A stretch of 64,000 nt of DNA from Gelidibacter gilvus. GTDB lineage: Bacteria; Bacteroidota; Bacteroidia; Flavobacteriales; Flavobacteriaceae. The position numbers and the translations under genes are program-made. This document shows positions 9,014 through 33,841 of the stretch, piece after piece (within the stretch, counting starts at the first letter, position 1; each line of letters begins with the position of its first letter). The notes under the pieces are model-generated. The model was given only the letters and a program-made list of their open reading frames with translations, had not been told where the DNA came from and searched no databases. Where the stretch lies: assembly GCF_004115975.1 (NCBI RefSeq), contig NZ_SDDZ01000001.1, positions 620,001 to 684,000 of the forward strand, read 5' to 3'.

Positions 9014-9087
9014 TCCTCTTTAGCTCAGTTGGTTAGAGCATCTGACTGTTAATCAGAGGGTCCTTGGTTCGAGCCCAAGAAGAGGAG
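9014..9087 (+). tRNA. tRNA-Asn (anticodon GTT)
   Basis: A 74-base cloverleaf. Acceptor TCCTCTT pairs with AAGAGGA and the discriminator is G. The D-arm is AGCTCAGTTGGTTAGAGC, the anticodon loop CTGTTAA has anticodon GTT, and the T-arm is CTTGG-TTCGAGC-CCAAG. CCA is not encoded. The 3' half is the attachment site of the mobile element that begins here; since integration its 3' end and terminator come from the element. Three truncated copies of the 3' end lie downstream at 24993, 25548 and 33778. Confidence 0.97.
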
Positions 9088-9088
9088 C
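9044..9088. repeat. attL: 45-bp repeat in the tRNA-Asn 3' half
   Basis: Identical to 24993-25037, from GACTGTTAATCAGAGGG in the anticodon arm through the T-arm and acceptor. It is the left attachment site of element A; the tRNA stays intact. Confidence 0.88.
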
Positions 9089-9098
9089 GTAATTGGAC

Positions 9099-9135
9099 AA
9101 AGCCATTCAAGAAATTGAGTGGCTTTTGTTTTTTG
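9099..9135 (+). terminator. Rho-independent terminator supplied by element A after tRNA-Asn
   Basis: AAAGCCA...TGGCTTTT stem followed by GTTTTTTG. It differs in sequence from the GCCGTTAC/GTAGCGGC terminator behind the other three tRNA 3' copies, so it belongs to the left end of the element. Confidence 0.6.
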
Positions 9136-9138
9136 TAT

Positions 9139-9160
9139 AGGTCAAACATAGGTCAAACAT
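9139..9160. promoter_or_regulatory. Left tandem 11-bp repeat: candidate integrase arm or regulator site
   Basis: Two perfect head-to-tail AGGTCAAACAT units, 50 bases inside the left attachment site. The same 22 bases recur at 24858-24879 near the right end, in the same orientation. They also lie just upstream of a TATATTTG -7 element (9164-9171) of the first gene, so binding there could repress it. Confidence 0.6.
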
Positions 9161-9180
9161 TTTTATATTTGCTTAGCTGA

Positions 9181-10050: not shown

Positions 10051-10054
10051 TAAT

Positions 10055-10149: not shown

Positions 10150-10166
10150 CCTAAATCTTATAGATT

Positions 10167-10484
10167 ATGGAAAACATTCAAGGAATAGTTTTTACACAAG
10201 AACAAATACAACAGATACAAGAAATTTGGGCTGATATTTTAAAGCCTTTAAAAGATTTTATGACAGTAGAGGAATTAGCTGATTATTTACAGCTTTCTAA
10301 ATCTGCCATTTATAAAATCACAAGTAGGAGAGAGATACCACATTACAATCCAGGAGGTAAAAAAATTTACTTCAAAAGAACTGAAGTTGATGCATGGATT
10401 GAAATGGGAAGAGTAGCTCCAGATTGTGAAATATTAGAAAAACTTCATCTACCTCTTAACTCAAAACTAAATGGGTCATGGTAG
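10167..10484 (+). CDS. Excisionase-like helix-turn-helix protein (HTH_17 type)
   Basis: A 105-residue protein with a MerR/excisionase-type winged HTH: MTVEELADYLQLSKSAIYKI, then a wing ending GGKKIYFKRTEVDAWIE. Such proteins bend DNA at attachment sites to direct excision or act as repressors. Its gene overlaps the rep gene by seven bases (ATGGTAG), so the two are translationally coupled. The palindrome at 10136-10149 is a plausible binding site. Confidence 0.78.
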   Translation: MENIQGIVFTQEQIQQIQEIWADILKPLKDFMTVEELADYLQLSKSAIYKITSRREIPHYNPGGKKIYFKRTEVDAWIEMGRVAPDCEILEKLHLPLNSKLNGSW

Positions 10485-11436: not shown

Positions 11437-12681
11437 ATGGCAAGTATCAAAATACTATTAAGAAAAAAACCAAATATTCAAGGAGAGTGTCCTATAGTTA
11501 TGCGCATTGTAAAGGACAGAAAATCCAAATTAATAAGCTTAGGAATAGCTACACCTTTAGCGGATTGGGATGATAAAGCAAATAAATTTAAAAGAAGTCA
11601 TCCAAATTGGAACCAAAGGAATAGAATTATATTAGAACTTGAGCAAAAGGCTCTCAAGATTATTGATGACTTTATGGCAACTGATACTGACTTTACCTTA
11701 GAACAGTTTGAAGAGCAAATGAAAGGCGTCAGAAAGAATAATATGACAGTTTCCCAATTTTGGAATCATAAGATTGAGGAATTAATTCAAGTGGGCAGAA
11801 CTGGGAATGCCAGAGCTCATAAAGATACATATACTTCATTTTTTAAGTTCCATAAGAGTAAATCATTAAAATTCCATCAAATTACACCTGATTTACTCTT
11901 CAGATATGAAACATATTTGAGAACTAATGGTAATCAGGATGGAGGTATTGGTGTAAAGATGCGAGAACTAAGAGCATTGTTTAATGAGGCAATAGAACGT
12001 GGAATTACGAATGAAAAATATTATCCATTTAAAATTTATAAGGTGTCCAAACTAAAGAGTAATAATATTAAAAAAGCTCTAAGTAGAGAGCAAATTAAGC
12101 TAATGGAGAATCTTGATACAGAGCAACATCCTCATTTAATGGATACTCAGAATTATATGGTATTCAGTTATTACACAGGGGGTATGAACTTTGTAGATAT
12201 GATGAAACTTAAATGGTCAAACATTGAGGAAGATAGAATTCTATATAAAAGGTCAAAAACTAAAGGAAGGTTTTCAGTTAAAATAATGCCACCTGTTAAA
12301 AAAGTAATTGATTTTTATAGAAAAAAGGTCAGAAAGACTGAATATGTGTTTCCTATTCTTTTAAGTGATGAACTTACACCAATTCAAATTGAAAATAGAA
12401 AGTTAAAAACCTTGAAAAAATTTAACAAGCAATTAAAGGAGATTGCCTCAATACAAGGAATAAATTCTAATGTAACTAGTTATACCATCAGACATAGTTT
12501 TGCAACGAATTTAAAGTATGCTGGAATTTCAATGGATGTAATTGGAGAAACAATGGGACATCAAAATGTTAATGTAACAAGGGCTTACTTAAAGGAATTT
12601 GAAAATGAGGTTCTGGATAGTGCAATGGAGAAATTATTAGAAGAGGATACTGAAGAGTATGCTTACAGAATAGCTAACTAA
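11437..12681 (+). CDS. int: Tyrosine recombinase / integrase of element A
   Basis: A 414-residue site-specific recombinase with the Bacteroidota layout: arm-binding N-terminus (MASIKILLRKKPNIQGECPI), SAM-like core-binding domain (about 100-190) and catalytic domain (about 215-390). Visible catalytic residues are Lys in KRSKTKG, R352 in YTIRHSFAT, H375 in MGHQNVNVT and nucleophile Y384 in TRAYLKEF. The first catalytic Arg is replaced by Asn (N251 in GGMNFVDMMKL), recalling IntDOT-type integrases, which also lack it. It most likely catalyses recombination between the tRNA-Asn repeats. It lies 2.4 kb inside the left end rather than adjacent to it. Confidence 0.93.
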   Translation: MASIKILLRKKPNIQGECPIVMRIVKDRKSKLISLGIATPLADWDDKANKFKRSHPNWNQRNRIILELEQKALKIIDDFMATDTDFTLEQFEEQMKGVRKNNMTVSQFWNHKIEELIQVGRTGNARAHKDTYTSFFKFHKSKSLKFHQITPDLLFRYETYLRTNGNQDGGIGVKMRELRALFNEAIERGITNEKYYPFKIYKVSKLKSNNIKKALSREQIKLMENLDTEQHPHLMDTQNYMVFSYYTGGMNFVDMMKLKWSNIEEDRILYKRSKTKGRFSVKIMPPVKKVIDFYRKKVRKTEYVFPILLSDELTPIQIENRKLKTLKKFNKQLKEIASIQGINSNVTSYTIRHSFATNLKYAGISMDVIGETMGHQNVNVTRAYLKEFENEVLDSAMEKLLEEDTEEYAYRIAN

Positions 12682-12995: not shown

Positions 12996-13865
12996 ATGAA
13001 ATTAAGACAATCAGAACGTAAAAGAGCTAAGATAAAATTAGCTCTACAAGGAAGTGCTGGAAGTGGTAAAACATATTCCAGTTTAATGTTGGCACAAGGA
13101 CTTACAAATAAAGACTTAACCAAGGTAGCTATAATAGATACTGAAAATGGTTCAGCAGATTTGTATGCCCACTTAGGTCAGTATAATGTGCTCACCTTAG
13201 AGCCACCATTTACACCAGAAAAGTACATTCAAGCAATTGATGTGTGTTTAAGAGCCAACATGGAGGTGATTATATTAGACTCTATATCTCAAGTATGGGA
13301 TGAATTATTGGATTTTCACTCCAAATTGCCAGGTAATAGTTTTACCAATTGGAACAAAGTAACTCCAAGGCAAAAAGCTTTCATGGACAAGATACTTCAA
13401 GCTCCTGCTCATATTATTGCAACCATGAGAACCAAACAGGATTACGTGCTTCAACAAAAAGATGGAAAGTATATACCTGAAAAAGTTGGGCTTAAGGCAA
13501 TTCAAAGAGATGGTGTAGATTATGAGTTTACTATAGTGTTTGATATAGATATCAAACATTTTGCTGTAGCAAGTAAGGACAGGACAAATCTGTTTTCTGG
13601 TAAACCTGAATTTACAATTAACACCTCAACAGGAAGAAAAATCTTGGATTGGTGCAATAGTGGTTCTAATCTGGAAGAAGCCAGAGAAAGGATTAAAGAG
13701 TGCAAAGAATTGGAGTCCTTAAGACAGCTTTATGCCCATTATGGTAATTGGCGTGAAGAACTTGAATATGATTTCAAGATTCAAAAAGATACCATTGTAT
13801 CAAAACAATCATTGTTAAACCCTAAAACATTTAGTACAAATGGAACTACAAGTCATAATGCCTAG
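12996..13865 (+). CDS. AAA/RecA-like ATPase, Sak4-type phage recombination protein
   Basis: A 289-residue P-loop ATPase. Walker A is GSAGSGKT (residues 19-26), Walker B VIILDSISQVWDE, and there is a sensor-like ATMRTKQDY. The layout matches the small RecA/AAA_24 family that includes phage Sak4 single-strand annealing proteins. These load on ssDNA and promote annealing during phage or element replication. It overlaps the following DUF3871 gene by 26 bases, so the two form an operon. Confidence 0.75.
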   Translation: MKLRQSERKRAKIKLALQGSAGSGKTYSSLMLAQGLTNKDLTKVAIIDTENGSADLYAHLGQYNVLTLEPPFTPEKYIQAIDVCLRANMEVIILDSISQVWDELLDFHSKLPGNSFTNWNKVTPRQKAFMDKILQAPAHIIATMRTKQDYVLQQKDGKYIPEKVGLKAIQRDGVDYEFTIVFDIDIKHFAVASKDRTNLFSGKPEFTINTSTGRKILDWCNSGSNLEEARERIKECKELESLRQLYAHYGNWREELEYDFKIQKDTIVSKQSLLNPKTFSTNGTTSHNA

Positions 13866-14862
13866 GCAAGAATTACAATTAAATCAAGTATCTCTAGGGG
13901 AAAGAAAGGATAGAGTTTTAAATATACCTCAGAAGCCTCTATTCAAGCTTAAACCATTTATTGAAGCTAATACTATTGATATAGAGATACAGCATCTAAA
14001 ACAGGATTGTGTCATTCCAGTTTTCTCAAAAGATAATGAGAGGACAATAGCACATCAGGAGTTTATAGAGATAGCTCAAGAATGTGCACAAGAGGTATTT
14101 CCTAATCACATTTTTGATGCTCCAGAAATTAGAGTAAGTCATCAGATTAAGGGTAGAACACCTTCTGCCATCAATAAGTCTGTGAAGGAGCTTTTGGACC
14201 ATGAGAAGACCATCTATTATGAAAGGATGGCATTTATAATGCGTATTCCAAGTATAACAGAAACTATTAATGGTAATGAGATTGCTCTGACCATTGGAGG
14301 GGTAAGGGCTTATAATCAAGAGAACTTATACTCAAAAAAGTCTTTTGAAAAGTTCAAGTTCTTTATAGGTTTTCAAAACTTGGTATGTTGTAATATGTGT
14401 GTTTCAAGTGATGGGTATGTGGAGGACTTGCGTGCTGATAGTTATAGTGGGATGAGGGCAAAACTATTAGAGGTTTTATATGCTTATCAAGCTGAAAACC
14501 ATTTCAATAGTTTAAAGCAGTTATCATATGAAAATCTAACAGAACATCAGTTTGCCCAGCTCATTGGAAAATCAAGGCTTTATAATTACTTACCTAAGAA
14601 GGATAAACTTGAAATTCCAGAATTGCTACTTAATGATGGGCAGATTACAACTGTTGCCAAGGACTATTACCATGATGAAAGCTTTTGTAGAAATGAAAAT
14701 GGAGATATTAATCTATGGAGTGTTTTTAACCTGTTTACACAAGCCAATAAGAGTTCTTATATAGATACCTTCTTGGATAGAAATGTCAACGCATTTGAGT
14801 TCTCAAGTGGGTTGGCTAAGACTCTCAATGGTGGTGGAGACTATCATTGGTTTTTGAGTTGA
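13840..14862 (+). CDS. DUF3871-family protein
   Basis: A 340-residue protein with the features I associate with DUF3871: IPVFSKDNERTIAHQEF, RVSHQIKGRTPSAINK, YYERMAFIMRIPSI, LTIGGVRAYNQENLYSKK and FIGFQNLVCCNMCVSSDG. The family recurs in mobile elements of Bacteroidota. It resembles phage DUF932-type proteins, whose function is unknown but which travel with DNA-processing genes. The start may be 13840 or the in-frame ATG at 13858. Overlap with the Sak4-like gene supports a shared replication or recombination role. Confidence 0.75.
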   Translation: MELQVIMPRQELQLNQVSLGERKDRVLNIPQKPLFKLKPFIEANTIDIEIQHLKQDCVIPVFSKDNERTIAHQEFIEIAQECAQEVFPNHIFDAPEIRVSHQIKGRTPSAINKSVKELLDHEKTIYYERMAFIMRIPSITETINGNEIALTIGGVRAYNQENLYSKKSFEKFKFFIGFQNLVCCNMCVSSDGYVEDLRADSYSGMRAKLLEVLYAYQAENHFNSLKQLSYENLTEHQFAQLIGKSRLYNYLPKKDKLEIPELLLNDGQITTVAKDYYHDESFCRNENGDINLWSVFNLFTQANKSSYIDTFLDRNVNAFEFSSGLAKTLNGGGDYHWFLS

Positions 14863-17262: not shown

Positions 17263-17694
17263 CTAATTTGCATTTAAAATAAAGTAGCTGACAACTAAAC
17301 TAAGATTGATTATTATATAAAATGGTGTTATAGAAGATTTGAATAAAACTTTCCAATAATTATAATTGCCACCTGTATATAATTTTGGATTCATTTCAAA
17401 TAGTTTTTTCGTTTTAATATCCTTTTCAGGAGTCAAATTACATATGTCATTATAAATACCTCTAAATTTCCTTTCTAACTGAAGATAATAGGCATCAAAG
17501 AACCAGAAGGTGGTTACTATTGGGATAGGGATTACAATCAATATAATTTTAGGATTGGTTGCATAAATAGCCAGAAAAGCAGCCAAAATTGTAATCATCA
17601 TTCCTTTCAATTGAAATGAAATTGTATTCATTCTGATTATAGTAGTTTGAACAAACTCTCTATGTTGCATAGAATAAGAGTTAAGGTCTGTCAT
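17263..17694 (-). CDS. Three-helix membrane protein paired with the TIR gene
   Basis: A 143-residue protein with an amphipathic N-terminus (SYSMQHREFVQTTIIRMNTI), a helical hairpin of two adjacent membrane segments (about 30-45 and 50-67, FQLKGMMITILAAFLAIYA and IILIVIPIPIVTTFWFF), a cytosolic stretch and a C-terminal helix (about 117-139). The hairpin recalls SLATT-like small membrane effectors, but I cannot assign the family. Its ATG lies one base beyond the TIR stop, so it is translationally coupled. A pore-forming or membrane-disrupting role downstream of TIR signalling is a reasonable hypothesis. Confidence 0.65.
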   Translation of the reverse strand: MTDLNSYSMQHREFVQTTIIRMNTISFQLKGMMITILAAFLAIYATNPKIILIVIPIPIVTTFWFFDAYYLQLERKFRGIYNDICNLTPEKDIKTKKLFEMNPKLYTGGNYNYWKVLFKSSITPFYIIINLSLVVSYFILNAN

Positions 17695-17695
17695 T

Positions 17696-18484
17696 TTAAG
17701 TAACTTTTTTAATTATGTATAATATATCCAATGGATGTGAATTTCTATTTTCCTCTTTTATATTTAGCTCTAGCCATGTTTTTAAATCTTCACTAGATAA
17801 ATCTTTCAAGTGAGATGTATCACTTTCATAATTAATTTCAAAATTCTCATTTAAATTATAAGCTTTAGTTAAAGAATGAGAAAGATGTATTGTTTTTCTT
17901 CTTGAAAAATCCTTATTCTGTCTTAGAATTTTTGATAGAAATATTTCACTGTAAATCCAGGGCGATTCAGTTTCATGGATAGCTTTTTTAATAGAAATGG
18001 AATTGATTGTTTCGAAAAACATTAGACATTCTGTCTTGTCCATCATTTCCGAAATGGCATTTATGAGCATCATGTGAGCATGACTTGTAGTAACATTTCT
18101 TTTTTCATAAGAATACGTTTTATTTATTTTATCATAACAATATTCATTGTCAATATCTCTCAAAAGGTCATTGACATTTCCCCAAATGATTGAATCAATA
18201 AAGACTTTTAAACCAAATTTATTTTTTACCCATCCAGCAAAATGTTTGGCTTTTTCCAAATCTTTATGAGAATGAGACAGGAATATATCACATTCAATTT
18301 GAGGAAACCATTCGTTTTGAGTAGCGCTCCCATCAATTATTTCACCCTTTTTGAATTTGAGTGATAGGCTTTCTTTGATTTTAGTTTTGTAAGAACTAGT
18401 CATTTGCTTACCAGCTGTCTTGTCAATGGATGACATATAAATGTTATCAAAGGAATTTTGATTTATTTTGAATCGGCTGTACAT
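17696..18484 (-). CDS. TIR-domain protein (TIR_2-like)
   Basis: A 262-residue protein with a TIR domain at about residues 64-185. The first strand and BB-loop region are CDIFLSHSHKDLEKAKHFAG and FGLKVFIDSIIWG. The helix with the catalytic Glu of NADase TIRs appears as SPWIYSE (E180). The middle insertion, TSHAHMMLINAISEMMDKTE, is typical of a bacterial TIR subtype. Bacterial TIRs hydrolyse NAD or make cyclic ADP-ribose-type signals in immunity. No sensor domain is fused. The gene starts 5 bases after the type IIG enzyme stop and ends one base before the membrane-protein start, giving a tight three-gene operon. Confidence 0.78.
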   Translation of the reverse strand: MYSRFKINQNSFDNIYMSSIDKTAGKQMTSSYKTKIKESLSLKFKKGEIIDGSATQNEWFPQIECDIFLSHSHKDLEKAKHFAGWVKNKFGLKVFIDSIIWGNVNDLLRDIDNEYCYDKINKTYSYEKRNVTTSHAHMMLINAISEMMDKTECLMFFETINSISIKKAIHETESPWIYSEIFLSKILRQNKDFSRRKTIHLSHSLTKAYNLNENFEINYESDTSHLKDLSSEDLKTWLELNIKEENRNSHPLDILYIIKKVT

Positions 18485-21400: not shown

Positions 21401-21522
21401 ATATTTTCCTGTATCTCTAGGTTATGGAAATAAGCTTTAAATAATTCCCATTTTGACTCTATTTCTACTTTATCCTGAGATTGGAGATACTTTGTTACAA
21501 CTGTATTTTGGAATAATGGCAT
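18490..21522 (-). CDS. Type IIG restriction-modification enzyme (Eco57I-like)
   Basis: A 1010-residue single-chain restriction-methylation enzyme. The N-terminal PD-(D/E)xK nuclease site is ADGG...VIELKGT (D88, E102, K104). A helical connector follows, then an adenine methyltransferase with SAM motif DPACGSGAFL (about 434) and catalytic NPPY (about 556). A C-terminal target-recognition and coiled-coil region ends in TYSEFIKELKKKKVTLSLSE. Both activities appear intact, so it should methylate and cut at its own site. It leads the operon with the TIR and membrane genes, so all three are probably expressed together. Confidence 0.9.
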   Translation of the reverse strand: MPLFQNTVVTKYLQSQDKVEIESKWELFKAYFHNLEIQENIRNSKEEQFQEGFLRELFVKILGYTLNPQPNFNLTTELKNVKDSKKADGGILVKDKVIGVIELKGTNTTDLGKVEDQAFGYKNNQAGCVYVITSNFEKLRFYIDNAIEHIEFNLFTISEQEFKLLYLCLGYENIKNNIPKKLKEESLSQEELITKQLYKDYSLFKRELFQNLCVLNPQFEPLELFKKSQKLLDRFLFLFFAEDRNLLPPNSVRVILKQWKQLKELDAYTPLYDRFKKYFGYLNTGFKGKQYNVFPYNGGLFKPDEVLDTIQIDDDLLYKHSYQLSEYDFESEVDVNILGHIFENSLNELDEITAQLEGKTINKADTKRKKDGVFYTPKYITKYIVENTIGKLCEEKKVELDITDEAYQPAKQRSRKRLDNLSLYKDWLLQLTICDPACGSGAFLNQALDFLINEHRYIDELSAKYNKDAFVLSDVENSILENNLFGVDLNEESVQIAKLSLWLRTAQPNRKLNDLSDNIKCGNSLIDDVSVAGDSAFNWQEEFPHIFEKGGFDVVIGNPPYVFARDNFSQEEKDLYVKKYLSAKYQINTYLLFIEKTVQILKKNGVYGLIIPNAWMMVYSGEGLRKYLLDTCNLYQIINLEGYSFESASVETVILLANKEIVKSKNSLEIYLNNGTEFYLSHIKNQVDFKYNDGFEFKVFLDDETEFINSKVISETIPLDDLVEIKAGLQAYEKNKGEPKQTAEDVKNRPYDYSFKFDENTHEYLEGKDVGRYYTNWSGTYLRYGENLAAPRTFNLFEGEKIIVREITGKYPKCIVSTYSDKLYLYNRSNIGIVEKENSDISLKYILSLLNSSLLSYYFMKNTAKSVRKLFPKIILNDLRKFPIKKINFSAQQPFIEKAERMLSLNKDLQETSQKLIRTLQRKFEELDKLSKKLENWHELTYSEFIKELKKKKVTLSLSEEAQWEDYFLAEQEKAQQLQNQITLTDKEIDQMVYELYGLTDDEIEIVENI

Positions 21523-22289: not shown

Positions 22290-22724
22290 ATGAAAGTATC
22301 AGAAATTAGAGTTTCGTATTCCAATGAGAATCCTGTCAAAGTGAAAATACAGGACAGTAATAGTGTCTATGAATTAGTAAAATATCATTGGGATTACAAT
22401 TTAATTGAACTTCAGGAGGAAGTGAAAGTTGTCCTACTTAACAGAGCCAATGTGGTCATTGGGATTTACGAACTTTCAAGAGGTGGACTTACAGCCAGTG
22501 TAGTGGATATAAAACTTATTTTAAGTGTGGCATTAAAAGCCCTTGCTTCAAGTATAGTGTTAATCCATAATCACCCCAGTGGGAACTTAAAAGCAAGTGA
22601 AGCTGATAAGAGTATTACCACAAAGTTAAAGCAGGCTTGTGATATAGTAGATATAAGTTTACTTGACCATTTAATTATTTCAAAAGATGGTTATTTAAGC
22701 TTTAAGGATGAGGGATTGCTATGA
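22290..22724 (+). CDS. RadC-like JAB/MPN-domain protein
   Basis: A 144-residue protein with the JAMM metal motif HNHPSGNLKASEAD (H93, H95, S103, D106), an upstream Glu in the first helix and strand, and the closing LLDHLIIS strand of the RadC family. Short RadC-like proteins of this type are common on mobile elements in Bacteroidota. The old link to DNA repair is unproven; the JAMM fold suggests a metallo-hydrolase. A weak inverted repeat (ACCTTACA/TGTAAGGT, 22724-22775) overlaps the stop codon. Confidence 0.88.
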   Translation: MKVSEIRVSYSNENPVKVKIQDSNSVYELVKYHWDYNLIELQEEVKVVLLNRANVVIGIYELSRGGLTASVVDIKLILSVALKALASSIVLIHNHPSGNLKASEADKSITTKLKQACDIVDISLLDHLIISKDGYLSFKDEGLL

Positions 22725-24992: not shown

Positions 24993-25076
24993 GACTGTTA
25001 ATCAGAGGGTCCTTGGTTCGAGCCCAAGAAGAGGAGCAAACAAAGCCGTTACGTAAGTAGCGGCTTTTTTGTTTTT
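24993..25076. repeat. attR of element A: second tRNA-Asn 3' copy with terminator
   Basis: 24993-25037 matches the tRNA 3' half exactly. It continues with AAACAAAGCCGTTACGTAAG and a GCCGTTAC/GTAGCGGC stem plus T tract. From 25013 to 25076 it is shared with the copies at 25548 and 33778. The right junction of element A is also the left junction of element B. Confidence 0.88.
25042..25070 (+). terminator. Terminator within tRNA 3' repeat, copy 2
   Basis: GCCGTTAC and GTAGCGGC form an 8-bp stem with a GTAA loop, followed by TTTTTTG. Probably the original tRNA-Asn terminator, or a copy carried by an element. Confidence 0.75.
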
Positions 25077-25205
25077 GGTAATTTCAGTCTTTTAGTGGCT
25101 CTTGATCGAGTTCTGAAAGCTTTTGGGATTGGTTCGGGTTTAGGAACAAGGTGGTGGATGAAAGAAGTACTATGAAATAATGTTTTCTTGTTTTATATTC
25201 ACTAT

Positions 25206-25505
25206 ATGAATCACTGTTGTTACATATTATATTCTAAAAAACTCAATCGTTATTATATTGGTTACAGTTCTGATTTAGACATTCGTCTTGTTTTTCATGA
25301 AAAATCAGAACCCAGGAAGTTTACTTACAATGCCAGTGATTGGAAACTTTATTATAAAATAGATTGTAAAAGTAAAAGTCAAGGCGAGTCAATTGAAGGT
25401 CATATTAAAAGAATGAAAAGTAGAATTTATATTGAGAACTTGATAAAGTATCCAGAGATTACTACTAAGTTGTTGGAGAAATATAAAGATATTAATATAA
25501 TATAG
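25206..25505 (+). CDS. GIY-YIG nuclease-domain protein
   Basis: A 99-residue stand-alone GIY-YIG domain: CCYILYSKKLNRYYIGYSSD supplies the paired YIL...YIG motif, LDIRLVFH the conserved Arg region, and SIEGHIKRMKSRIYIENLI the later Glu-containing helix. The start at 25206 (MNHCCYILYS) is chosen over 25188 because the domain begins there. UvrC/YhbQ-like single-domain proteins of this size are common in Bacteroidota and usually of unknown role. It is the only gene in the small cassette between two tRNA-derived repeats. Confidence 0.82.
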   Translation: MNHCCYILYSKKLNRYYIGYSSDLDIRLVFHEKSEPRKFTYNASDWKLYYKIDCKSKSQGESIEGHIKRMKSRIYIENLIKYPEITTKLLEKYKDINII

Positions 25506-25547
25506 CCATTTTTGATGACCGTTAAACGAGTCCCGAAAGCTTTCGGG

Positions 25548-25611
25548 ATTGGTTCGAGCCCAAGAAGAGGAGCAAACAAAGCCGTTACGTAAGTAGCGGC
25601 TTTTTTGTTTT
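25548..25611. repeat. Third tRNA-Asn 3' copy with terminator (B/C junction)
   Basis: A 64-base copy identical to 25013-25076. It holds the T-arm and acceptor 3' end, then the terminator stem (25577-25605). It is preceded by a palindrome, CCCGAAAGCTTTCGGG (25531-25546), not found before the other copies. Confidence 0.85.
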
Positions 25612-25947
25612 TAATAGTTTCGATGGGTTACAGCAGTACTCAAGGTATTTAATCCAATGGCAATTTGTTAACTTATCTGTTGAGAGCGGCTGAAAAGGGA
25701 TCCAATTAATGGTCCACTTTTGTTTTAAAGGGACTCATCTAACCTTATGGCATTCCAAAAAAAGAATCTGTCGAATCTTTTGGTAACGACGCAACTTTTA
25801 TTAATGGATTCCGTCCTTAAGTCGTTCTCCGACCTTTTGTATTGCACCCTGCTATGTCCTTTATTTACCTTTGCAGGAAATGATCCAAGGGGTTTATTAG
25901 GGAATGAGTAGGGGTCGTTATGGGTGTAATACGAAACGAATACGTTG

Positions 25948-26171: not shown

Positions 26172-26321
26172 ATGGTTATAATTCTGACTCTATTTCCTAT
26201 TGCGGAATATGAATCAGTTGCAGAAGCTTCAAGGCAAACAGGGATATCTAAATCCTGTATTAGCAAAGTATGCAGAGGTGAACGAAAACAGTCAGGTGGT
26301 TATATTTGGAAGTACATTTAG
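26172..26321 (+). CDS. Small NUMOD-like DNA-binding protein or homing-endonuclease fragment
   Basis: A 49-residue frame, MVIILTLFPIAEYESVAEAS continuing through RQTGISKSCISKVCRGERKQ to GGYIWKYI. This is the NUMOD-type HTH repeat normally found at the C-terminus of GIY-YIG and HNH homing endonucleases (SIxEAAxxTGxSxxxIxxxCxGxxKxxGGxxW). No nuclease part is present upstream, so it is probably a fragment; the GIY-YIG gene 0.7 kb upstream belongs to another cassette. An independent small DNA-binding protein is also possible. Confidence 0.6.
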   Translation: MVIILTLFPIAEYESVAEASRQTGISKSCISKVCRGERKQSGGYIWKYI

Positions 26322-26434
26322 AACTAAAGGAGGTAGCAGATATGTTGCCTCTTTTTTTTAGTAGAATGGAGACTTTTCCATTAAAAGATTTCTATTTTTA
26401 ACTGCTGTTTAATTTTATTCAACATTATAGAGAA

Positions 26435-27091
26435 ATGATGCCGTCAACAAATAATATACAAGTCAAATCAAAAAAAAGGGTTTCAGACCATGGTGAGGTA
26501 TTTACTTCTGAAAGAGAGGTTAATGATATGCTTGACTTGGTTAAACAAGAAACACAACGTATCGACTCACGTTTTCTTGAGCCTGCTTGTGGTTCAGGAA
26601 ATTTTCTAGTTGAAGTTCTTAACAGAAAACTTCGAGTAGTGGAAAGTATTTTTAGAAGGAGCCAATTAGAATATGAGCGTAATTCAGTTTTAGCAATCTC
26701 AAGTATTTATGGTGTTGATATTCTAAATGATAATGTAAAAGAGTGTAGAGAACGTCTTTTCGAAATATTTGACTCCAAATACTCCAAGTTATATAGAAAA
26801 AAATGTACTGAACAGTGTCGCCAATCAATCAAATTTATATTAAGTAAAAATATAATGCTAGGTGATGCGCTATATTACACAAACCCTGAAACAAACGAAC
26901 CAATTGTTTTTTCTGAATGGACTTTTATTACTGGAAGTTTATTGAAAAGACGAGATTTCAGATACCGCTTTCTAGTTGATAAATCAAATTCAAGTGACCA
27001 TGTGAATGACCTTGGAGATTTTTCGGTTATAGATGAGCCTATACAAGAGTTTCCAGTTACCCATTTTCTAAAAATTGCAGAATATGCTTAA
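26435..27091 (+). CDS. Methyltransferase-like subunit M1 (SAM motif only)
   Basis: A 218-residue protein with the adenine-methyltransferase SAM motif FLEPACGSGNFLVEVL (about 48-63) and the preceding HGEVFTSEREVNDML, but no NPPY catalytic motif. This matches a known short subunit M family that sits before an Eco57I-type methyltransferase and a helicase nuclease. It may be a structural or SAM-binding partner of the next protein. It overlaps that gene by 17 bases in another frame, so they are coupled. The 820 bases before it hold repeats and the NUMOD fragment. Confidence 0.75.
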   Translation: MMPSTNNIQVKSKKRVSDHGEVFTSEREVNDMLDLVKQETQRIDSRFLEPACGSGNFLVEVLNRKLRVVESIFRRSQLEYERNSVLAISSIYGVDILNDNVKECRERLFEIFDSKYSKLYRKKCTEQCRQSIKFILSKNIMLGDALYYTNPETNEPIVFSEWTFITGSLLKRRDFRYRFLVDKSNSSDHVNDLGDFSVIDEPIQEFPVTHFLKIAEYA

Positions 27092-28604
27092 GATAAATTA
27101 TAATCCTGATGTGCTTTCTTGTCTTGCTAATTTAAGCAACGATGAAGTTTTTACACCTCCAAAGTTAGTGAACGAAATTTTAGATTCAATACCTAGAGAA
27201 TTATTTGAAAATAAAGAAATAACCTTTTTAGACCCTGTTTCAAAAACGGGTGTTTTTTTAAGAGAGATTGCGAAAAGACTAATGATAGGTTTAGAAAAAA
27301 CTATTCCTGATAAACAAGAACGGATTAATCACATCTTTAAAAACCAGTTATATGGTATTGCTGTTACAGAACTAACCTCTTTGTTGTCTCGTAGAAGTAT
27401 GTATTGTTCTAAATATGCTAATGGAAAATATTCTATTTGTGAAACTTTTGATAATGAAGAAGGAAACTTAAAATTTGATTACACTCAGCATACATGGGAA
27501 AATGGAAAATGTACCTACTGTAATGCTAGTGAAGAGGTATATTCAAGAAAAGACGATTTAGAAACCTATGCTTATCAGTTTATACATACTGATAAGCCTG
27601 AAAATATTTTCAATATGAAATTTGACGTTATAATTGGTAATCCACCATATCAATTGAGTGATGGCGGACATGGTAGAAGCGCGAGTCCTATTTATCACAA
27701 ATTTATAGAACAAGCTAAAAAGCTTAACCCACGTTATCTAACAATGATTATTCCTGCGCGCTGGTATGCTGGTGGTAAAGGTTTAGATGATTTTAGAAAT
27801 GGAATGTTAAATGATGATAGAATTAGAAAATTAGTTGATTTTGAAAACTCATCTGATGTGTTTCCTGGAGTTGATATAGCAGGAGGTATTTGTTATTTTT
27901 TATGGGAAAGAGATAATAAAGGTTTATGTGAAATAACGAATCTTTATGATGGCGTAAAAGTTACTTCAGAAAGAGCTTTGAATGAATTTGATGTTTTTAT
28001 TAGACACAGTCAAGCTGTTCCTGTAATAAGAAAAGTACTTAAAATAGAAAATGCGAAACACAATTTAAACAAAGTTGTTTCTCCAAGAAAACCTTTTTCA
28101 TTACCAACTAATTATAAGCCTACTAAAAAAGGAATAAAGTGTCATTTCACTCAAAAGTTAGGTTTACAATATGCCAATCCAGCTGATGTTACAGATAGAT
28201 TTAAAATTAGGCAAAAATGGAAACTCTTAATACCAAGAGCACCAATAGCAGGACAAACAGATTTTTCTAAACCAGTTGGTTTTTATTATGATGGCAATAC
28301 ACGAATTGCAAAACCTGATGAAATTTGTACAGAGTCTTGGTTAGTGGCTTGTGCATTTTCAACTAAAGAAGAGGTTGTATCATTTAAATCTTATTTATTC
28401 ACTAAAATAGTTCGTTTTCTTTTGCTTCAAACTGTTGTTTCTCAGGATATTCCAAGAGATAAATTTGTTTTTATACCACATTTAGAAAAATATGATATGG
28501 AGTTTACTGATGAAATTTTGCGAGAAAGATGGGATATAACTGATGAAGAATGGGCATTTATTGATTCTAAAATAAAAGCTACAGAATTAATAAATAATAA
28601 ATGA
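27075..28604 (+). CDS. Eco57I-type adenine methyltransferase subunit M2
   Basis: A 509-residue methyltransferase. The SAM motif is altered, FLDPVSKTGVFL (51-62), instead of DPACGSG. The catalytic motif is intact, VIIGNPPYQLSDGG (N189-Y192). A Cys pair (GKCTYCNASEE) may bind zinc. The C-terminal half, with SPRKPFSLPTNYKP and IPRAPIAGQTDFSK, is probably the target-recognition region. M1 carries a canonical SAM motif without NPPY, and M2 carries NPPY with a modified motif I, so the two may form one active enzyme (inference). It sits 4 bases before the helicase gene. Confidence 0.83.
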   Translation: MQNMLKINYNPDVLSCLANLSNDEVFTPPKLVNEILDSIPRELFENKEITFLDPVSKTGVFLREIAKRLMIGLEKTIPDKQERINHIFKNQLYGIAVTELTSLLSRRSMYCSKYANGKYSICETFDNEEGNLKFDYTQHTWENGKCTYCNASEEVYSRKDDLETYAYQFIHTDKPENIFNMKFDVIIGNPPYQLSDGGHGRSASPIYHKFIEQAKKLNPRYLTMIIPARWYAGGKGLDDFRNGMLNDDRIRKLVDFENSSDVFPGVDIAGGICYFLWERDNKGLCEITNLYDGVKVTSERALNEFDVFIRHSQAVPVIRKVLKIENAKHNLNKVVSPRKPFSLPTNYKPTKKGIKCHFTQKLGLQYANPADVTDRFKIRQKWKLLIPRAPIAGQTDFSKPVGFYYDGNTRIAKPDEICTESWLVACAFSTKEEVVSFKSYLFTKIVRFLLLQTVVSQDIPRDKFVFIPHLEKYDMEFTDEILRERWDITDEEWAFIDSKIKATELINNK

Positions 28605-28608
28605 TAAT

Positions 28609-31116
28609 ATGAGTAAAGAGTTTTTCCCACAACGCCCGAAATCGAAACCGGTTATTTATGCCTATGAGTTACCTAATGATATTACTCGGGAAGGTCAATT
28701 AAAAATAGGAGACACGAATAGGTCAGCGAAAGAACGTATTAAAGAACAAATTGGTGCTACCCGTTCGCAGTTTAATATTGTTTATGAGGAATCTGCTGTT
28801 TATAAAAATGGTAATTCTTTTCGTGATCATGAAATACACAGATACTTGCGCAAAAAAGGGATAAAAAACCCAGATGGTGAATGGTTCAAATGCTCGTTAA
28901 AAGATGTTAAAGCTGCAATAATTTCTGTTAAAAGAGGTGAATTAAATGAAGAAAACAGATCGCTTGATTTTAAAATGCGCCCTGAGCAAGAAGAAGCTGT
29001 AAATAAAACAATTCAATATTTCAAAAATTATAAGAAGGAAAATCACAATAGTACTCCTCATTTTTTATGGAATGCCAAAATGCGTTTTGGTAAGACCTTT
29101 TCTACTTATCAACTGGCAAAAAAACAAAATTGGTCAAAGGTTTTAGTTTTGACATTTAAGCCAGCTGTCCAAAGTTCTTGGAAAGAAGATCTAATGTCTC
29201 ATGTAGATTTTGAAGGTTGGCAATTTATATCAAAAGACGGTTTAACCTATGAAGAGGCGGATAAAAACAGACCGTTTGTTTGTTTTGGTTCTTTTCAAGA
29301 TTATTTAGGCAAAAACACAACTACAGGTGGTATAAAAACGCGCAATGAATGGGTACATGCTACGCATTGGGATTGTGTGGTTTTTGATGAGTATCACTAT
29401 GGTGCTTGGAATGACAACGCTAAAGGACTGTTTAATGAATTATATGAAGATGGAAAAGATGAAGATTTGAAATATGTAGATAAGATTGAAAATTTTGACG
29501 AAGATATTATTCCAATTACAACAGAATCATTTTTATATTTATCTGGTACACCTTTTAAAGCATTAAGTTCAGGTGAATTTATTGAAGAAGAAATTTTCAA
29601 TTGGACATATTCTGATGAGCAAAAGGCAAAGGAGGAGTGGAAGGGTGAAAATAACCCTTATGCCACTTTACCAAGAATGGTAATGCTAACCTATCAACTA
29701 CCCGATTCAATTAGAGAAATAGCTTTAGGAGGTGAGTATAATGAATTTGATTTAAATACCTTTTTTACCGCAGTTGGTGAAAAGGAGAATGCTAAATTCA
29801 ATTTAGAAAGTGATGTTCAAAAATGGTTAGATTTAATTAGAGGAGGCTTTAGGGAAACCACTTTAGATAATTTAAAGCAAGGAACTCAAAAACCACCAAT
29901 GCCATTTTCTGACATAAGGTTACTAAATGTTTTGACACATACTTTTTGGTTTTTACCATCAGTCGCATCATGTCATGCAATGAAAAATTTAATGTCTCAA
30001 AAGCAAAATAACTTTTATCATGATTTCGAAATAATTGTTGCAGCAGGAGCAAGTGCTGGTATAGGTGTTAATGCCTTAACACCAGTTTTAGAAGCAATGG
30101 ATAACCCTTTAGAATCCAAAACAATAACTCTGTCCTGCGGTAAATTAACAACAGGAGTTTCTGTAAAGCCGTGGTCAGGAATTTTTATGTTACGTAATTC
30201 ATCAAGTCCAGAAACTTACTTTCAAGCGGCATTTAGAGTGCAAACACCATGGACAATTAAAAATCCTGATAGCATGTCTCCTAATGAAGAGGAGATTATG
30301 AAAGAGGAATGCTACGTCTTTGATTTTGCTCCAAACAGGGCGTTAAGTCAAATAGCTGATTATGCATGTCGTCTAAATATAAATGAATCGAATCCAGAAA
30401 AAAATGTTGCTGAATTTATTCATTTCTTACCTGTTTTAGCTTATGATGGTAGTTCTATGAGACAAGTTGATGCAGCAGGTGTCTTAGATATTGCAATGAG
30501 TGGTACAACAGCTACATTGTTGGCAAGACGATGGGAAAGTGCATTATTAGTAAATGTAGACAATAATACGTTAGCTCGCTTAATGGCAAATCAAGATGCT
30601 CTTGATGCGTTGCTAAATATTGAGGGATTTAGAAATTTAAATCAAGATATTGAGACAATAATTAATAAATCTGAATCAGTAAAAAAAGCAAAAAAAGAAG
30701 CCAATGATAAAGAATTAACTAAAAAAGAAAAACAAGCATTATCAGAAGAAGAAAAAGAGTATAAAAGTTTAAGAAAACAAATTCAAGAAAAACTTATAAA
30801 GTTTGCGACTCGTATTCCCATATTTATGTATTTAACTGACTATAGGGAGCGTAGTCTGAAAGACGTAATTACTCAATTAGAACCTGGACTATTTAAAAAA
30901 GTAACAGGCTTGGATGTTAAAGATTTTGAATTGCTTGTGAGTATTGGAGTGTTTAATAGCTCTTTGATGAATGATGCTGTTTTTAAATTCAAAAGATATG
31001 AAGATGCAAGTCTCGAATACATAGGTATTAATAAACATGAAGGAGAGGATGTTGGAGGTTATGATACTGTTATAACTAGAGAGGATTATAATCAAGTTTT
31101 TGTCAATAAGCAGTAG
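28609..31116 (+). CDS. GIY-YIG (T5orf172-like)/superfamily 2 helicase fusion: restriction subunit
   Basis: An 835-residue fusion. The N-terminus (about 13-105) looks like a T5orf172/Mug113 GIY-YIG domain (VIYAYELPND, LKIGDTNRSAKERIKEQIG, DHEIHRYLRKKG, EWFKC). A DEAD-like helicase follows, with Walker A NAKMRFGKT (155-163), DEYH in VVFDEYHYG (about 259), SGTPF, and later motifs GKLTTGVSVKPW and QAAFRVQTPW. A charged coiled region lies near 690-730. Nuclease plus translocase after a methyltransferase pair fits an ATP-dependent restriction system. The helicase would track on DNA and the GIY-YIG domain cut. Confidence 0.78.
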   Translation: MSKEFFPQRPKSKPVIYAYELPNDITREGQLKIGDTNRSAKERIKEQIGATRSQFNIVYEESAVYKNGNSFRDHEIHRYLRKKGIKNPDGEWFKCSLKDVKAAIISVKRGELNEENRSLDFKMRPEQEEAVNKTIQYFKNYKKENHNSTPHFLWNAKMRFGKTFSTYQLAKKQNWSKVLVLTFKPAVQSSWKEDLMSHVDFEGWQFISKDGLTYEEADKNRPFVCFGSFQDYLGKNTTTGGIKTRNEWVHATHWDCVVFDEYHYGAWNDNAKGLFNELYEDGKDEDLKYVDKIENFDEDIIPITTESFLYLSGTPFKALSSGEFIEEEIFNWTYSDEQKAKEEWKGENNPYATLPRMVMLTYQLPDSIREIALGGEYNEFDLNTFFTAVGEKENAKFNLESDVQKWLDLIRGGFRETTLDNLKQGTQKPPMPFSDIRLLNVLTHTFWFLPSVASCHAMKNLMSQKQNNFYHDFEIIVAAGASAGIGVNALTPVLEAMDNPLESKTITLSCGKLTTGVSVKPWSGIFMLRNSSSPETYFQAAFRVQTPWTIKNPDSMSPNEEEIMKEECYVFDFAPNRALSQIADYACRLNINESNPEKNVAEFIHFLPVLAYDGSSMRQVDAAGVLDIAMSGTTATLLARRWESALLVNVDNNTLARLMANQDALDALLNIEGFRNLNQDIETIINKSESVKKAKKEANDKELTKKEKQALSEEEKEYKSLRKQIQEKLIKFATRIPIFMYLTDYRERSLKDVITQLEPGLFKKVTGLDVKDFELLVSIGVFNSSLMNDAVFKFKRYEDASLEYIGINKHEGEDVGGYDTVITREDYNQVFVNKQ

Positions 31117-31134
31117 GATCTAAATATCTCTATA

Positions 31135-33636
31135 ATGAAAGCAAACGAACTACCCATTACCAATTTCTTACAAGCGCCAAATGTGCAGTTTGTAATACCT
31201 GTATATCAGCGAAATTATGATTGGACTAATAATGAATGTAAAGAATTAATAAATGATATTATTGCTGTTGAAAAACACGATAGAGGCACGCATTTTATTG
31301 GAAGTATTGTATTCATTCATGAAGGAACATATAGCACCAGTGAAGTTAAAGAATTAGTGATTATTGATGGTCAACAGCGCCTTACCACTATCAATATTAT
31401 ATATGTAGCGCTCTACCGTTTTGCGAGAGAAAACAGTATGCAAAATGAAGCTGACATGTTGTTCAACATGTTCTTAACTAATCAATATGTACAGCACGAA
31501 TCCAACAAGCTTAAGTTAAAGCAAACTGATACCAACTCATTAGCTTTTAAAGCTATAATGAATGGTACAGAAAATGAATTTAACCATTACTCGAATGTTA
31601 TTGAGAACTTCAATTACTTTAAGAGTATAATCACAAAGGATGATTTTCATGTTATTTTAAATGGATTAAAGCGCTTAATATTTGTTGAGATTTCCTTAGA
31701 ACGAGGCAAGGACGACCCACAGAGAATCTTTGAAAGTTTAAATTCCACTGGCTTAGATTTATCACAATCGGATTTAATTAGAAATTTTATTTTAATGGAT
31801 TTAGATCCTAAGAGCCAAAACAAGATTTTTGAACAAATCTGGAATCCTATTGAAGAAAATGCGAGGGATCTTGTAAGACAGAAGTCTGTGGTATCAGATT
31901 ACATTAGAGATTACTTGACCTTACGTAATAAAAAGATTCCTAATAAAAACAAAGTGTATTTGGAATTCAAAAAGCTTTATAGTGATAAAGACGAATCCTA
32001 TATGCAAGAGTTAGAGAATATTAAATCTTTATCTGTGCATTATAAGAAGTTTATTAATCCATCTTCCGTACACGACCATAACATTCGTAGAGAGTTAGAA
32101 TATATTTCACGTCTTGAGATTAATGTGGCATTTCCTTTTCTGCTACAGGTATTTGAAGATGCGGAAAATGGCTTGATCACCAATAGTGACTTAATCAAAA
32201 TATTAAAACTGATCCAAACTTATACTTGGAGGAGGTTTGTTGTAGGCTTGCCAACTAACGCTCTGAATAAAATTTTTATGACCTTGTATTCAGAAGTGGA
32301 TACTGAAGACTATTACAATTCTATAGCCTTGGCTTTGGTTACAAAACGTGGTAGTGCTAAATTTCCAACGGATGAGGACTTAAAGAGTGCTCTAAAAGAT
32401 AAAGACTTGTATAATATTCAGTCTAAAAATAGGAATTACATGTTTGAGATGTTGGAGAATTTCAATAATAGAGAACATGTGGATACTTCAAATGAACATA
32501 TAACTATAGAGCATATTTTCCCTCAAACGCCTCATGAGGATTGGAATAAGGACTTACTGCCAGATGACTTTTTCATGTTTAAGGAAAAGTATCTCAATAC
32601 CATTGCTAATCTTACACTTTCTGGAAACAATGGAGCGCTTGGCAACAGGAGTTTTATAGATAAGAAAACTATGAACAGGCAAGGAGAGGAACAAGGTTAT
32701 GATTTTAGCCGCCTGTGGTTAAATGATTACTTAAAAACGATAGATAATTGGACTATAGAAAACTATAATGAGCGTTTTAATTTGATTTATAATCGTTTTC
32801 TAAACATTTGTAAATATCCTGATGTCATTGCGCCAGTCTCAGAAAACACAGAAGAGACTTTGTTTAGTGCGGAAGCTCCTACCTATAAAAAATTAGAGTA
32901 TTTTATTTTTGAAAATACTAAGGTGGACGAAGAAATTATAGCTCGAATGTATTTCTATGTGATTGAGAAATTATATGATAAAAATCCTCAACTATTACTA
33001 GAGGCTAAGGAGATTTTAAAAATCACAAGAAATGAATCTGACTTTAGGGATGCACAAAGATTGCAGAGTGGTTATTTTGTAGAATCAAATATCGGTAGTG
33101 ATGCAAAATTTAATATACTTAAAAAACTTCTAACATTATTCGAGCTAGAAGATGAGTTAATTATTAAATATGGAGATAGCCATAATATTGGTGGATCTGC
33201 ACCTCGTTTTAGTGTGCGTAAAGAATTTTGGAAACAACTGCTTCCATTACTACATGATACTGAGATATTTAGCAATGTAAATCCCTCAAAGGATTCATGG
33301 TTAAGTGCTGGGGCTGGTGTCTCTGGAGTAAATTATACATTCGCTGTAACAGGTAATTATGCTAGGATTGAATTAAGTATTATCACCTCAAGTAAAGAAA
33401 CCAACAAAAAATACTTCAGAACTTTGTATAATCAAAAGGATTCAATTGAGACTGCTTTTGGAAATCAGCTAGAGTGGGAAGAATTGCCCGATAATAAAAT
33501 GAGCCGTATCAAATATGAGCTTAAAGGTGTCAATTTATTTGATAGGGCTGATTGGGAGAGAATGATTGAGTTCTTAGTAACATACTTGCCTAAATTTGAA
33601 TTGGCATTACAACCCACAATTCAAATATTAAGGTAG
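31135..33636 (+). CDS. GmrSD-like type IV restriction protein (DUF262-DUF1524-DUF4268)
   Basis: An 833-residue protein. N-terminal DUF262 has VIPVYQRNYDW and IIDGQQRLTTIN, an NTP-using ParB-like fold. The middle DUF1524 HNH motif is HITIEHIFPQTP (about 455), with the later NLTLSGNNGALGNRSF. The C-terminal portion (about 690-833) looks like DUF4268 (ARIELSIITSSKETNKKYF). GmrSD enzymes cut DNA carrying modified bases such as glucosylated hydroxymethylcytosine. It starts 18 bases after the helicase gene, so the operon couples modification-blocked and modification-dependent restriction. Confidence 0.83.
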   Translation: MKANELPITNFLQAPNVQFVIPVYQRNYDWTNNECKELINDIIAVEKHDRGTHFIGSIVFIHEGTYSTSEVKELVIIDGQQRLTTINIIYVALYRFARENSMQNEADMLFNMFLTNQYVQHESNKLKLKQTDTNSLAFKAIMNGTENEFNHYSNVIENFNYFKSIITKDDFHVILNGLKRLIFVEISLERGKDDPQRIFESLNSTGLDLSQSDLIRNFILMDLDPKSQNKIFEQIWNPIEENARDLVRQKSVVSDYIRDYLTLRNKKIPNKNKVYLEFKKLYSDKDESYMQELENIKSLSVHYKKFINPSSVHDHNIRRELEYISRLEINVAFPFLLQVFEDAENGLITNSDLIKILKLIQTYTWRRFVVGLPTNALNKIFMTLYSEVDTEDYYNSIALALVTKRGSAKFPTDEDLKSALKDKDLYNIQSKNRNYMFEMLENFNNREHVDTSNEHITIEHIFPQTPHEDWNKDLLPDDFFMFKEKYLNTIANLTLSGNNGALGNRSFIDKKTMNRQGEEQGYDFSRLWLNDYLKTIDNWTIENYNERFNLIYNRFLNICKYPDVIAPVSENTEETLFSAEAPTYKKLEYFIFENTKVDEEIIARMYFYVIEKLYDKNPQLLLEAKEILKITRNESDFRDAQRLQSGYFVESNIGSDAKFNILKKLLTLFELEDELIIKYGDSHNIGGSAPRFSVRKEFWKQLLPLLHDTEIFSNVNPSKDSWLSAGAGVSGVNYTFAVTGNYARIELSIITSSKETNKKYFRTLYNQKDSIETAFGNQLEWEELPDNKMSRIKYELKGVNLFDRADWERMIEFLVTYLPKFELALQPTIQILR

Positions 33637-33777
33637 AAAGTTCATTATTTGCATGTTTAGATAATTAATTAACAGCTATTTTAACATACAAAAAATCAAC
33701 ACATAATATAATAAGGCATACAATTCGGATGGACTAGATAAAGGGATAAATACGTGTAAGTCAAGTAATAACCTTCC

Positions 33778-33841
33778 TTGGTTCGAGCCCAAGAAGAGGA
33801 CCAAACAAAGCCGTTACGAAAGTAGCGGCTTTTTTGTTTTT
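33778..33841. repeat. Fourth tRNA-Asn 3' copy with terminator (right end of array)
   Basis: 64 bases matching 25013-25076 with two differences (acceptor end GAGGACC and ACGAAAG in the terminator loop). The stem 33807-33835 and T tract are intact. Sequence after it (GTAGGTTTCGATTGG) resembles that after copy 3, suggesting this is the ancestral chromosomal flank of the tRNA gene. Confidence 0.85.

Follow-up and report, generated by a model that had tools for sequence, protein, structure and literature searches.

A ~0.5-kb GIY-YIG nuclease element among three insertions stacked at one tRNA-Asn gene of Gelidibacter gilvus, a probable case of gene-end-replacing homing

Organization of the tRNA-Asn locus

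The window analyzed in this work is a 64,000-nucleotide stretch of the Gelidibacter gilvus genome (NCBI RefSeq GCF_004115975.1, contig NZ_SDDZ01000001.1, positions 620,001 to 684,000), in which one tRNA-Asn gene (9014-9088) was called by ARAGORN. It is followed by three insertions, designated A (9089-25037), B (25038-25573) and C (25574-33802). Judged from the sequences, two of these stacked parts, A and C, appear ordinary, and the smallest, B, a unit of ~0.5 kb built around an open reading frame (ORF) for a GIY-YIG nuclease, appears to expose a new variant of gene-end-replacing homing. The target gene is:

9014..9088, + strand: tRNA-Asn(gtt), called by ARAGORN; target of all three insertions, apparently single-copy

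The last 45 nucleotides (nt) of this gene (9044-9088) are repeated exactly at 24993-25037, its positions 51-75 at 25549-25573 and its positions 48-73 at 33775-33800, and a fifth, decayed 3' copy with a degenerate palindrome lies at ~25090-25136 (79% over 47 bp to 25510-25556). A 'CAAAGCCGTTACGNAAGTAGCGGC' terminator stands 3' of all three downstream copies (24993, 25549, 33775), and the intact gene itself is followed by another terminator; 25013-25076 and 25549-25612 are identical over 64 bases. When the whole genome was searched with tRNA-Asn (E<=1e-5), matches were obtained at four places in this locus and in three further stretches of 80-83% identity that are presumably different tRNA genes. 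The 111-bp repeat matched only this locus at E<8e-4, and the hit ranking next was a bare palindrome. On these whole-genome searches the long copies are not due to chance, the genome apparently has one copy of the tRNA-Asn gene, and the repeats are confined to this locus.

The original prediction, made from the window alone, had the tRNA-Asn 3' end occurring four times and dividing the region into three units. Recurrence and coordinates were borne out. The four ends are not equivalent as att sites: they are 45, 45, 25 and 26 nt long, with a decayed fifth beside them, and the one at 25549 is a tRNA end that lies displaced, with a palindrome in front of it. The assignment of the 25549 copy as an att site was dropped on the anatomy of the B family, described below.

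Structure of element B and its nuclease

Element B comprises the GIY-YIG ORF, the remains of a tRNA anticodon arm, an 18-bp palindrome and tRNA positions 51-75, and is flanked by identical 64-bp copies of tRNA end plus terminator. On its sequence it is not an integrase element. Its features are:

25038..25076, + strand: terminator left of B, identical to the terminator right of B
25090..25136, + strand: decayed displaced tRNA copy with degenerate palindrome, 79% to 25510-25556
25206..25505, + strand: GIY-YIG nuclease ORF of B (Pfam GIY-YIG, alignments)
25531..25548, no strand: 18-bp palindrome TCCCGAAAGCTTTCGGGA, between the tRNA anticodon-arm remains and tRNA position 51

The decayed copy at 25090-25136 was taken as the probable remnant of an earlier B-type unit. 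The nuclease is 99 amino acids long from the ATG at 25206, or 105 from the upstream TTG at 25188, and keeps all of the family-conserved Y, Y-x-G, R, E and K in alignments, positions that we take to be catalytic. An AlphaFold (AF2) model reached a mean pLDDT of 90.6. The best PDB matches were the UPF0213 proteins 1zg2 and 1ywl, then SLX1, with I-TevI weaker; in a fold search only 1zg2 fell below E 0.001 (TM 0.52). No PADLOC, PHROG or NCBIfam match was found for the nuclease at E<=1e-3, nor any match in phage or plasmid records at E 1e-5. Comparison across the family suggests that the nuclease is the mobility enzyme of the element itself. The defence label fits A (type IIG RM, ThsB-like TIR, PDC-M50A) and C (Eco57I-type methyltransferase, T5orf172-helicase, GmrSD/DUF4268) and does not fit B (no PADLOC match, E<=1e-3); over the whole region several putative anti-phage genes are clustered, as in a defence island, with PADLOC matches in A and C and none in B.

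Recurrence of B-type units beside tRNA genes

Homologues of the B nuclease (E<=1e-8) were found in 62/299 genomes of the family, and a 20-member profile (E<=1e-12) had matches in 178/395 genomes of the phylum, the genome of the window being included in both counts. For a first set, 119 loci (L067-L185) were extracted, many of them picked among best matches and tandem copies, and 15 were left out as own genome or duplicates, leaving 104; one of those left out, L096, is a distinct tRNA-Phe locus with nuclease, displaced copy and palindrome, and the first-set counts are to that extent one supporting locus short. A tRNA was found in 90/104 loci, within 400 bp of the nuclease match in 88 and within 120 bp in 79. 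All tRNA-nuclease pairs within 120 bp (82/82) were on the same strand. On the far side of the ORF, a displaced part-copy of the same tRNA was present in 79/83 pairs, a few of the 83 being displaced copies themselves that ARAGORN called as odd tRNAs.

For a named set, 384 named relatives were scanned and the best 80 loci kept, of which 11 share an identical 200-mer with the first set. These span Flavobacterium, Winogradskyella, Psychroflexus, Algibacter, Cytophagales and others. A tRNA lay within 400 bp in 63/80, on the same strand in 63/63, with a palindrome in 54/63 and a displaced copy in 59/63.

Most B-type units are found downstream of a tRNA, whose 3' end they replace, and others upstream, where it is the 5' end that is replaced (Asn 1-14, Arg-cct 1-22). 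The insertion point is fixed, in that the tRNA-Asn breakpoint at 45/51 recurs and other isotypes have breakpoints of their own; typical positions are Asn 51, Met 41, Val 44-47, Ala 45, Gly 57 and Phe 62, with exceptions. Tandem arrays of 2 to 7 units occur.

Individual arrays were also inspected. L097 (G164:C1:541800-544328) has seven GIY-YIG units with a period of ~381 bp, several internal copies encoding the same protein, and L142 (G587:C1) has five units at ~315 bp. The genome of the window holds, at L034 1373-2176 (G000:C14 ~36000), a mirror form in which an intact tRNA-Pro(tgg) is preceded by two GIY-YIG ORFs in tandem; in the displaced 5' copies of this tRNA, TCACGC...GCGTGA palindromes take the place of arms. 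The same genome holds, at L031 500-1800 (G000:C24:465720-466739), tandem 265-bp repeats, each with a GIY-YIG ORF start and a ATTCCTGCGAAGGCAGGAAT palindrome; this array ends in a complete GIY-YIG ORF, and a tRNA was not found in the 3-kb loci.

Palindromes in displaced tRNA ends and elsewhere

The motif [TC]CCCG-N(2-10)-CGGG[AG] was present in 52/83 displaced zones, compared with 4/81 and 1/78 zones taken from these loci as controls. In the examples inspected, the displaced tRNA has the palindrome within, or in place of, an arm or its variable loop. A composite pattern that joins the anticodon strand of tRNA-Asn to the palindrome was found once each in 5/299 family genomes, 0-6 bp from a B-type nuclease match, and the reversed composite pattern in none of the 299. 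Within the genome of the window, TCCCGA...TCGGGA with variable interiors occurs at 29 sites, B included, and the reversed pattern at 0. Dispersed palindromes were viewed in 17 loci (16 sites, two loci showing one site), 15 of them outside ORFs of at least 90 codons.

Target groups and terminator comparison

A nuclease tree was built from 81 sequences over 97 columns, with many forks unresolved. The label of tRNA plus side changed 29 times on this tree, compared with a mean of 60.7 after shuffling, and none of 200 shuffles was as low. Arg-cct 5', Phe 3' and Gly 3' each form one group, and B groups with seven other tRNA-Asn 3' members (support 98). Nuclease clades thus appear, on this tree, to track the targeted tRNA.

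If the donor tRNA end is carried in with the element, a foreign terminator is expected beside the intact tRNA and a native one after the displaced end. Left and right terminators were therefore compared, using the tRNA adjoining the nuclease and leaving out first-set loci repeated in the named set, at 43 distinct tRNA-Asn loci: they agreed to at least 80% in 23, to 60-80% in 6 and to <60% in 14 (before repeats were removed, 29 of 49 loci agreed and 20 did not). Between different loci, 47/1806 comparisons reached 80%. Comparison with element-free genomes covered one locus, L242, from a Flavobacterium metagenome-assembled genome, in which the right terminator, together with the sequence past it, matches the element-free L286 and L290, and the left terminator shows no such match; L286 and L290 were taken as congeners of L242 because their genus group has tRNA-Asn loci identical to those of named Flavobacterium (L117/L193, L119/L219). 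The copy of B in the window, with its equal terminators, is neutral on the direction of copying.

Congeneric genomes and order of insertion

The genus set consisted of nine genomes, that of the window and eight relatives (G001-G008). The same upstream gene, for a peptidase M50/RseP-like protein, was found followed by tRNA-Asn in 8/8 of the relatives. A native-type terminator follows the tRNA in G002, G003, G006 and G007, and an A-type left end in G001, G004 and G008; G005 has something else, its contig ending within 1 kb. Stretches bounded by a second copy of the 3' end, with sizes computed from coordinates, measure ~30.5 kb in G001, 17.7 kb in G003, 39.8 kb in G004 and 24.6 kb in G006. Only one copy was present in G002 and G007, over 33 and 39 kb read respectively, and in G008 (~54 kb read) a second copy was not found, despite its A-type left end. 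None of the stretches retrieved from the eight relatives yielded a B homologue.

Window positions 24993-25078 are identical to the intact tRNA-Asn end plus following sequence in G002, and in G003 the intact tRNA is joined directly to the sequence that follows B in the window. By this nesting, with a G003 junction that lacks B and with A between the tRNA and B, the insertions are inferred to have occurred in the order C, then B, then A. Serial insertion at one tRNA-Asn, as originally predicted, is supported by relatives that lack A and by relatives with a single 3' end; the comparison of the locus across relatives yielded A-free sites and, in G002 and G007, a clean single 3' end, and neither insertion of the whole region at once nor the same repeats far from tRNA-Asn was seen. 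The view of three stacked elements holds, A, B and C being of three different kinds. In G002 (L047 5059-10077), which is without A, B and C, Cas4-, Cas2-, Cas1- and Cas3-like ORFs, judged from translations, lie downstream of tRNA-Asn.

Proposed mechanism and alternative explanations

It is likely that one tRNA-Asn gene took up C, then the ~0.5-kb homing element B, then A, and that B is a case of gene-end-replacing homing. This reading draws on what is seen in the sequences, namely the anatomy of B, its recurrence across genera and isotypes, target-specific clades, unlike flanks in part of the loci and a pre-insertion junction; from these we infer cutting, copying, expression from the tRNA transcript and any role of the palindrome. 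The UPF0213/SLX1-like GIY-YIG nuclease would cut an element-free tRNA gene at a fixed point (tRNA-Asn positions 45-51), and repair on the donor copy would import the donor's tRNA 3' end, terminator, nuclease ORF and palindrome. A complete 3' end would thereby be supplied to the 5' part of the tRNA, keeping the essential gene intact, and the recipient's own 3' end would be displaced downstream behind the palindrome. Because of the same-strand placement, it is suggested that the ORF is read together with the tRNA. Tandem arrays may arise from renewed cutting of the intact tRNA or from unequal exchange, the mirror form would carry and replace the tRNA 5' end, and the palindrome may prevent cutting of the displaced copy, or its making a tRNA.

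Several points weigh against this account. No tRNA was found at 14/104 loci of the first set, some of them at contig ends, and among the other 17 loci of the named set one had a tRNA at 421 bp and 16 had none, 7/17 lying near a contig end; a tRNA lay within 400 bp in 3 of 29 control loci from the genome of the window, which were in part selected for their resemblance to this tRNA locus. Similarity to tRNA-linked members was the basis on which loci were retrieved, and the frequencies do not apply to GIY-YIG genes as a whole. The strict palindrome motif is missing from 31/83 displaced zones, the displaced copy in the window falls outside the strict composite motif, and the 16 dispersed palindrome sites have no B-type nuclease within ~1.5 kb. 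The Asn 3' label changes 6 times on the nuclease tree and does not form one clade. At the 23/43 loci with agreeing terminators, the window included, a duplicating insertion explains the data equally well. Lastly, the intact tRNA should remain cuttable, which would expose the donor to self-damage.

A further idea, which we regard as doubtful, is that the nuclease acts on DNA hairpins, cutting tRNA arms and palindromes as cruciform-like structures and swapping hairpins, which would both drive homing at tRNA genes and seed the TCCCGA...TCGGGA palindromes dispersed over these genomes. If true, this hairpin-acting nuclease would be a GIY-YIG counterpart of the RAYT/REP systems, with tRNA genes as a safe haven.

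Among the alternatives to homing, an unlikely one is that B-type units are small transposons that duplicate a 50-100 bp target (tRNA end plus terminator), the palindrome being the element end. It would account for the terminators agreeing in 23/43 loci, exactly over 64 bp in the window, and for the palindrome at the junction, but not readily for the 20/43 loci with terminators below 80%, 14 of them below 60%, nor for L242, where the right terminator is native and the left another, and the displaced copies have tRNA sequence on both sides of the palindrome. It is quite improbable that B is a mere remnant of another integrase element and that all four 3' ends are ordinary att sites: B does sit between two integrase-type units at one tRNA, and short 3' ends resemble att cores, yet many genera have this unit (nuclease, palindrome, tRNA 51-75, terminator) at tRNA-Asn, with an unchanged breakpoint, and the ~0.4 kb that separates the tRNA ends is too short to hold an integrase. 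Arrival of the whole 24.8 kb as one composite unit, parts of which relatives then lost, is highly improbable; several elements at one site can move together, as is generally known, but the C-type element of G003 and the A-type left ends of G001, G004 and G008 stand without B in the stretches fetched. That the nuclease is a housekeeping UPF0213/SLX1-like repair enzyme merely located beside tRNA genes, as its nearest solved structures (UPF0213 proteins and SLX1) might suggest, is scarcely credible in view of its patchy presence (62/299 genomes), tandem arrays, displaced tRNA copies and target-specific clades.

Features of elements A and C

Element A is an ordinary complete tyrosine-recombinase integrative element at a tRNA 3' end, with an integrase at 11437-12681 and 45-bp identical att repeats with the tRNA restored. 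Sites free of A exist in G002, G003, G006 and G007, other elements being present there in G003 and G006. The 24-bp repeat of A may be an arm site, and its HTH_17 protein may have an excisionase-like role. The features of A are:

9044..9088, + strand: attL core, last 45 nt of the tRNA, identical to 24993-25037
9089..9137, + strand: left end with its own terminator-like hairpin; same left-end type in G001, G004 and G008
9139..9162, + strand: 24-bp direct repeat inside the left end, partner at 24858-24881
10167..10484, + strand: HTH_17 protein (domain match)
11437..12681, + strand: tyrosine recombinase (Arm-DNA-bind_5, SAM_5, Phage_integrase)
12996..14862, + strand: AAA_24 and DUF3871 genes, two ORFs, with homologues in the G003 and G006 elements
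17263..18484, - strand: PDC-M50A-type protein and ThsB-like TIR protein, two ORFs, cargo
18490..21522, - strand: type IIG restriction enzyme-methyltransferase, cargo
22290..22724, + strand: RadC-like JAB protein
24993..25037, + strand: attR core, tRNA positions 31-75

Element C is best read, from its resemblance to the G003 element, as a decayed integrative element that would have lost ~9.5 kb, including the integrase. The relative in G003 is 17.7 kb long, is located at the same tRNA and has an integrase; it shares with C, in the same order, the left end (82% over 135 bp), 26206-26401 (77%) and a GmrSD-like gene (85.5% in DNA, 91% in protein). The restriction genes of C (methyltransferases and T5orf172-helicase) differ from those of the G003 element. 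The earlier claim that only the first unit has an integrase was upheld, since none was found among the scanned B or C proteins and a search for integrase remnants in the left part of C (25574-26434) gave no match better than E 0.76. Mobility of C without help was rejected on this negative search of its left part and on the G003 relative, which shows the missing portion. The features of C are:

25549..25612, + strand: left boundary (displaced tRNA-Asn 3' end 51-75 plus terminator), aligning with intact tRNA plus C-type left end in G003
26206..26401, + strand: NUMOD-type ORF remnant, 77% in DNA to L048 11238-11447 (tblastn 1.6e-19)
26435..28604, + strand: methyltransferase genes (MmeI-type fragment, Eco57I-type)
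28609..31116, + strand: T5orf172/GIY-YIG-ResIII helicase
31135..33636, + strand: GmrSD-like/DUF4268 protein, 91% amino acid identity to the G003 element
33775..33840, + strand: right end (tRNA positions 48-73) plus following terminator

The NUMOD-type ORF is whole in the G003 element, and the ORF in L048 has NUMOD1. Two adjacent ORFs at 27075-31116 match different halves of the PADLOC type IIG model PDLC03626 (1359 aa) and may represent a separated and reordered restriction-methylase. Degenerate 11-bp tandem repeats of the ACGCTATAAGC type are located at 25942-25985 in the decayed left part of C, and a tandem 133-bp repeat with a hairpin, ATTGTTGGTGGAAAACACCAACAAT, lies just right of C (33874-34121).

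Comparison with known systems

tRNA genes are known docking sites for integrases. Like the tyrosine-recombinase elements found there, A has an integrase, att repeats made of a tRNA end, a restored tRNA and relatives without the element, and it stands out only by the terminator at its left end; C would be a remnant of such an element. The B family would be a second way to exploit tRNA genes, by a gene of ~100 codons that would depend on neither an integrase nor an intron and would keep the essential tRNA functional by supplying its missing half. A repeated tRNA 3' end, it follows as a caution, is not always an integrase att site.

By sequence and by fold, the B nuclease is best matched by UPF0213 proteins (1zg2, 1ywl) and SLX1. 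SLX1 cuts branched DNA, and we know of no mobility of UPF0213 genes. RAYTs are Y1 transposases, and REPs are dispersed short palindromes; RAYT/REP systems and B are alike in having dispersed short palindromes and a small nuclease-like protein. Assignment of B to RAYT/REP was rejected, Pfam giving GIY-YIG only and no Y1 transposase, and the dispersed TCCCGA palindromes looked at not lying beside the nuclease.

In open-licence literature searched by title and abstract start, no description of tRNA-rebuilding GIY-YIG elements in bacteria was found, a search by which absence is not proven, and the relevant passages of PMC1564403 report no association with tRNA genes. The B family is apparently undescribed and widespread in Bacteroidota.

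SegB of phages T4 and T6 is described, in the passages of PMC13096335 that concern it, as a free-standing GIY-YIG homing endonuclease near tRNA genes that cuts inside tRNA genes and drives tandem amplification, reportedly without isotype preference. SegB and B share the GIY-YIG domain near tRNA genes and the tandem amplification, and the SegB motif RAWTSGAAC given in the same passages resembles, in our own reading, the reverse complement of the tRNA T-loop. SegB is a phage gene, the study searched viral proteins, and rebuilding of the tRNA end is not among the features described in those passages (PMC13096335); unlike SegB, B-type clades are tied to particular tRNAs. Membership of B in the SegB family was rejected, B having no match in phage records at E 1e-5 and no PHROG; one of two other B-family members matched phrog_314 (homing endonuclease) at 3e-6.

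The mORFs of fungal mitochondria, described for atp6, atp9, cox2 and nad3 of Glomus and atp6 of Allomyces in the relevant sections of PMC3630166, resemble B in that an endonuclease ORF lies downstream of the gene whose 3' end it supplied. In those sections, the displaced native end beyond the mORF matches close relatives and the supplied end is more distant, the same pattern as in L242 (PMC3630166). B has the conserved residues, a confidently predicted fold, an apparently fixed insertion point and a displaced gene-end copy by which such elements are recognized. The mORFs described there reside in mitochondrial protein genes and are of the LAGLIDADG type in three of the four Glomus cases (PMC3630166). 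The B family, unlike the mORFs, is located at bacterial chromosomal tRNA genes, has a UPF0213/SLX1-like nuclease, marks the displaced end with a palindrome and includes 5' mirror forms and tandem arrays. If gene-end replacement is what these units do, the B family, found across Bacteroidota at about a dozen tRNA types, would account for pieces of tRNA and tandem nuclease ORFs that lie next to tRNA genes, would be a source of candidate site-specific nucleases of very small size, each linked to a single tRNA, and would extend gene-end-replacing homing from fungal mitochondria to bacterial chromosomes.

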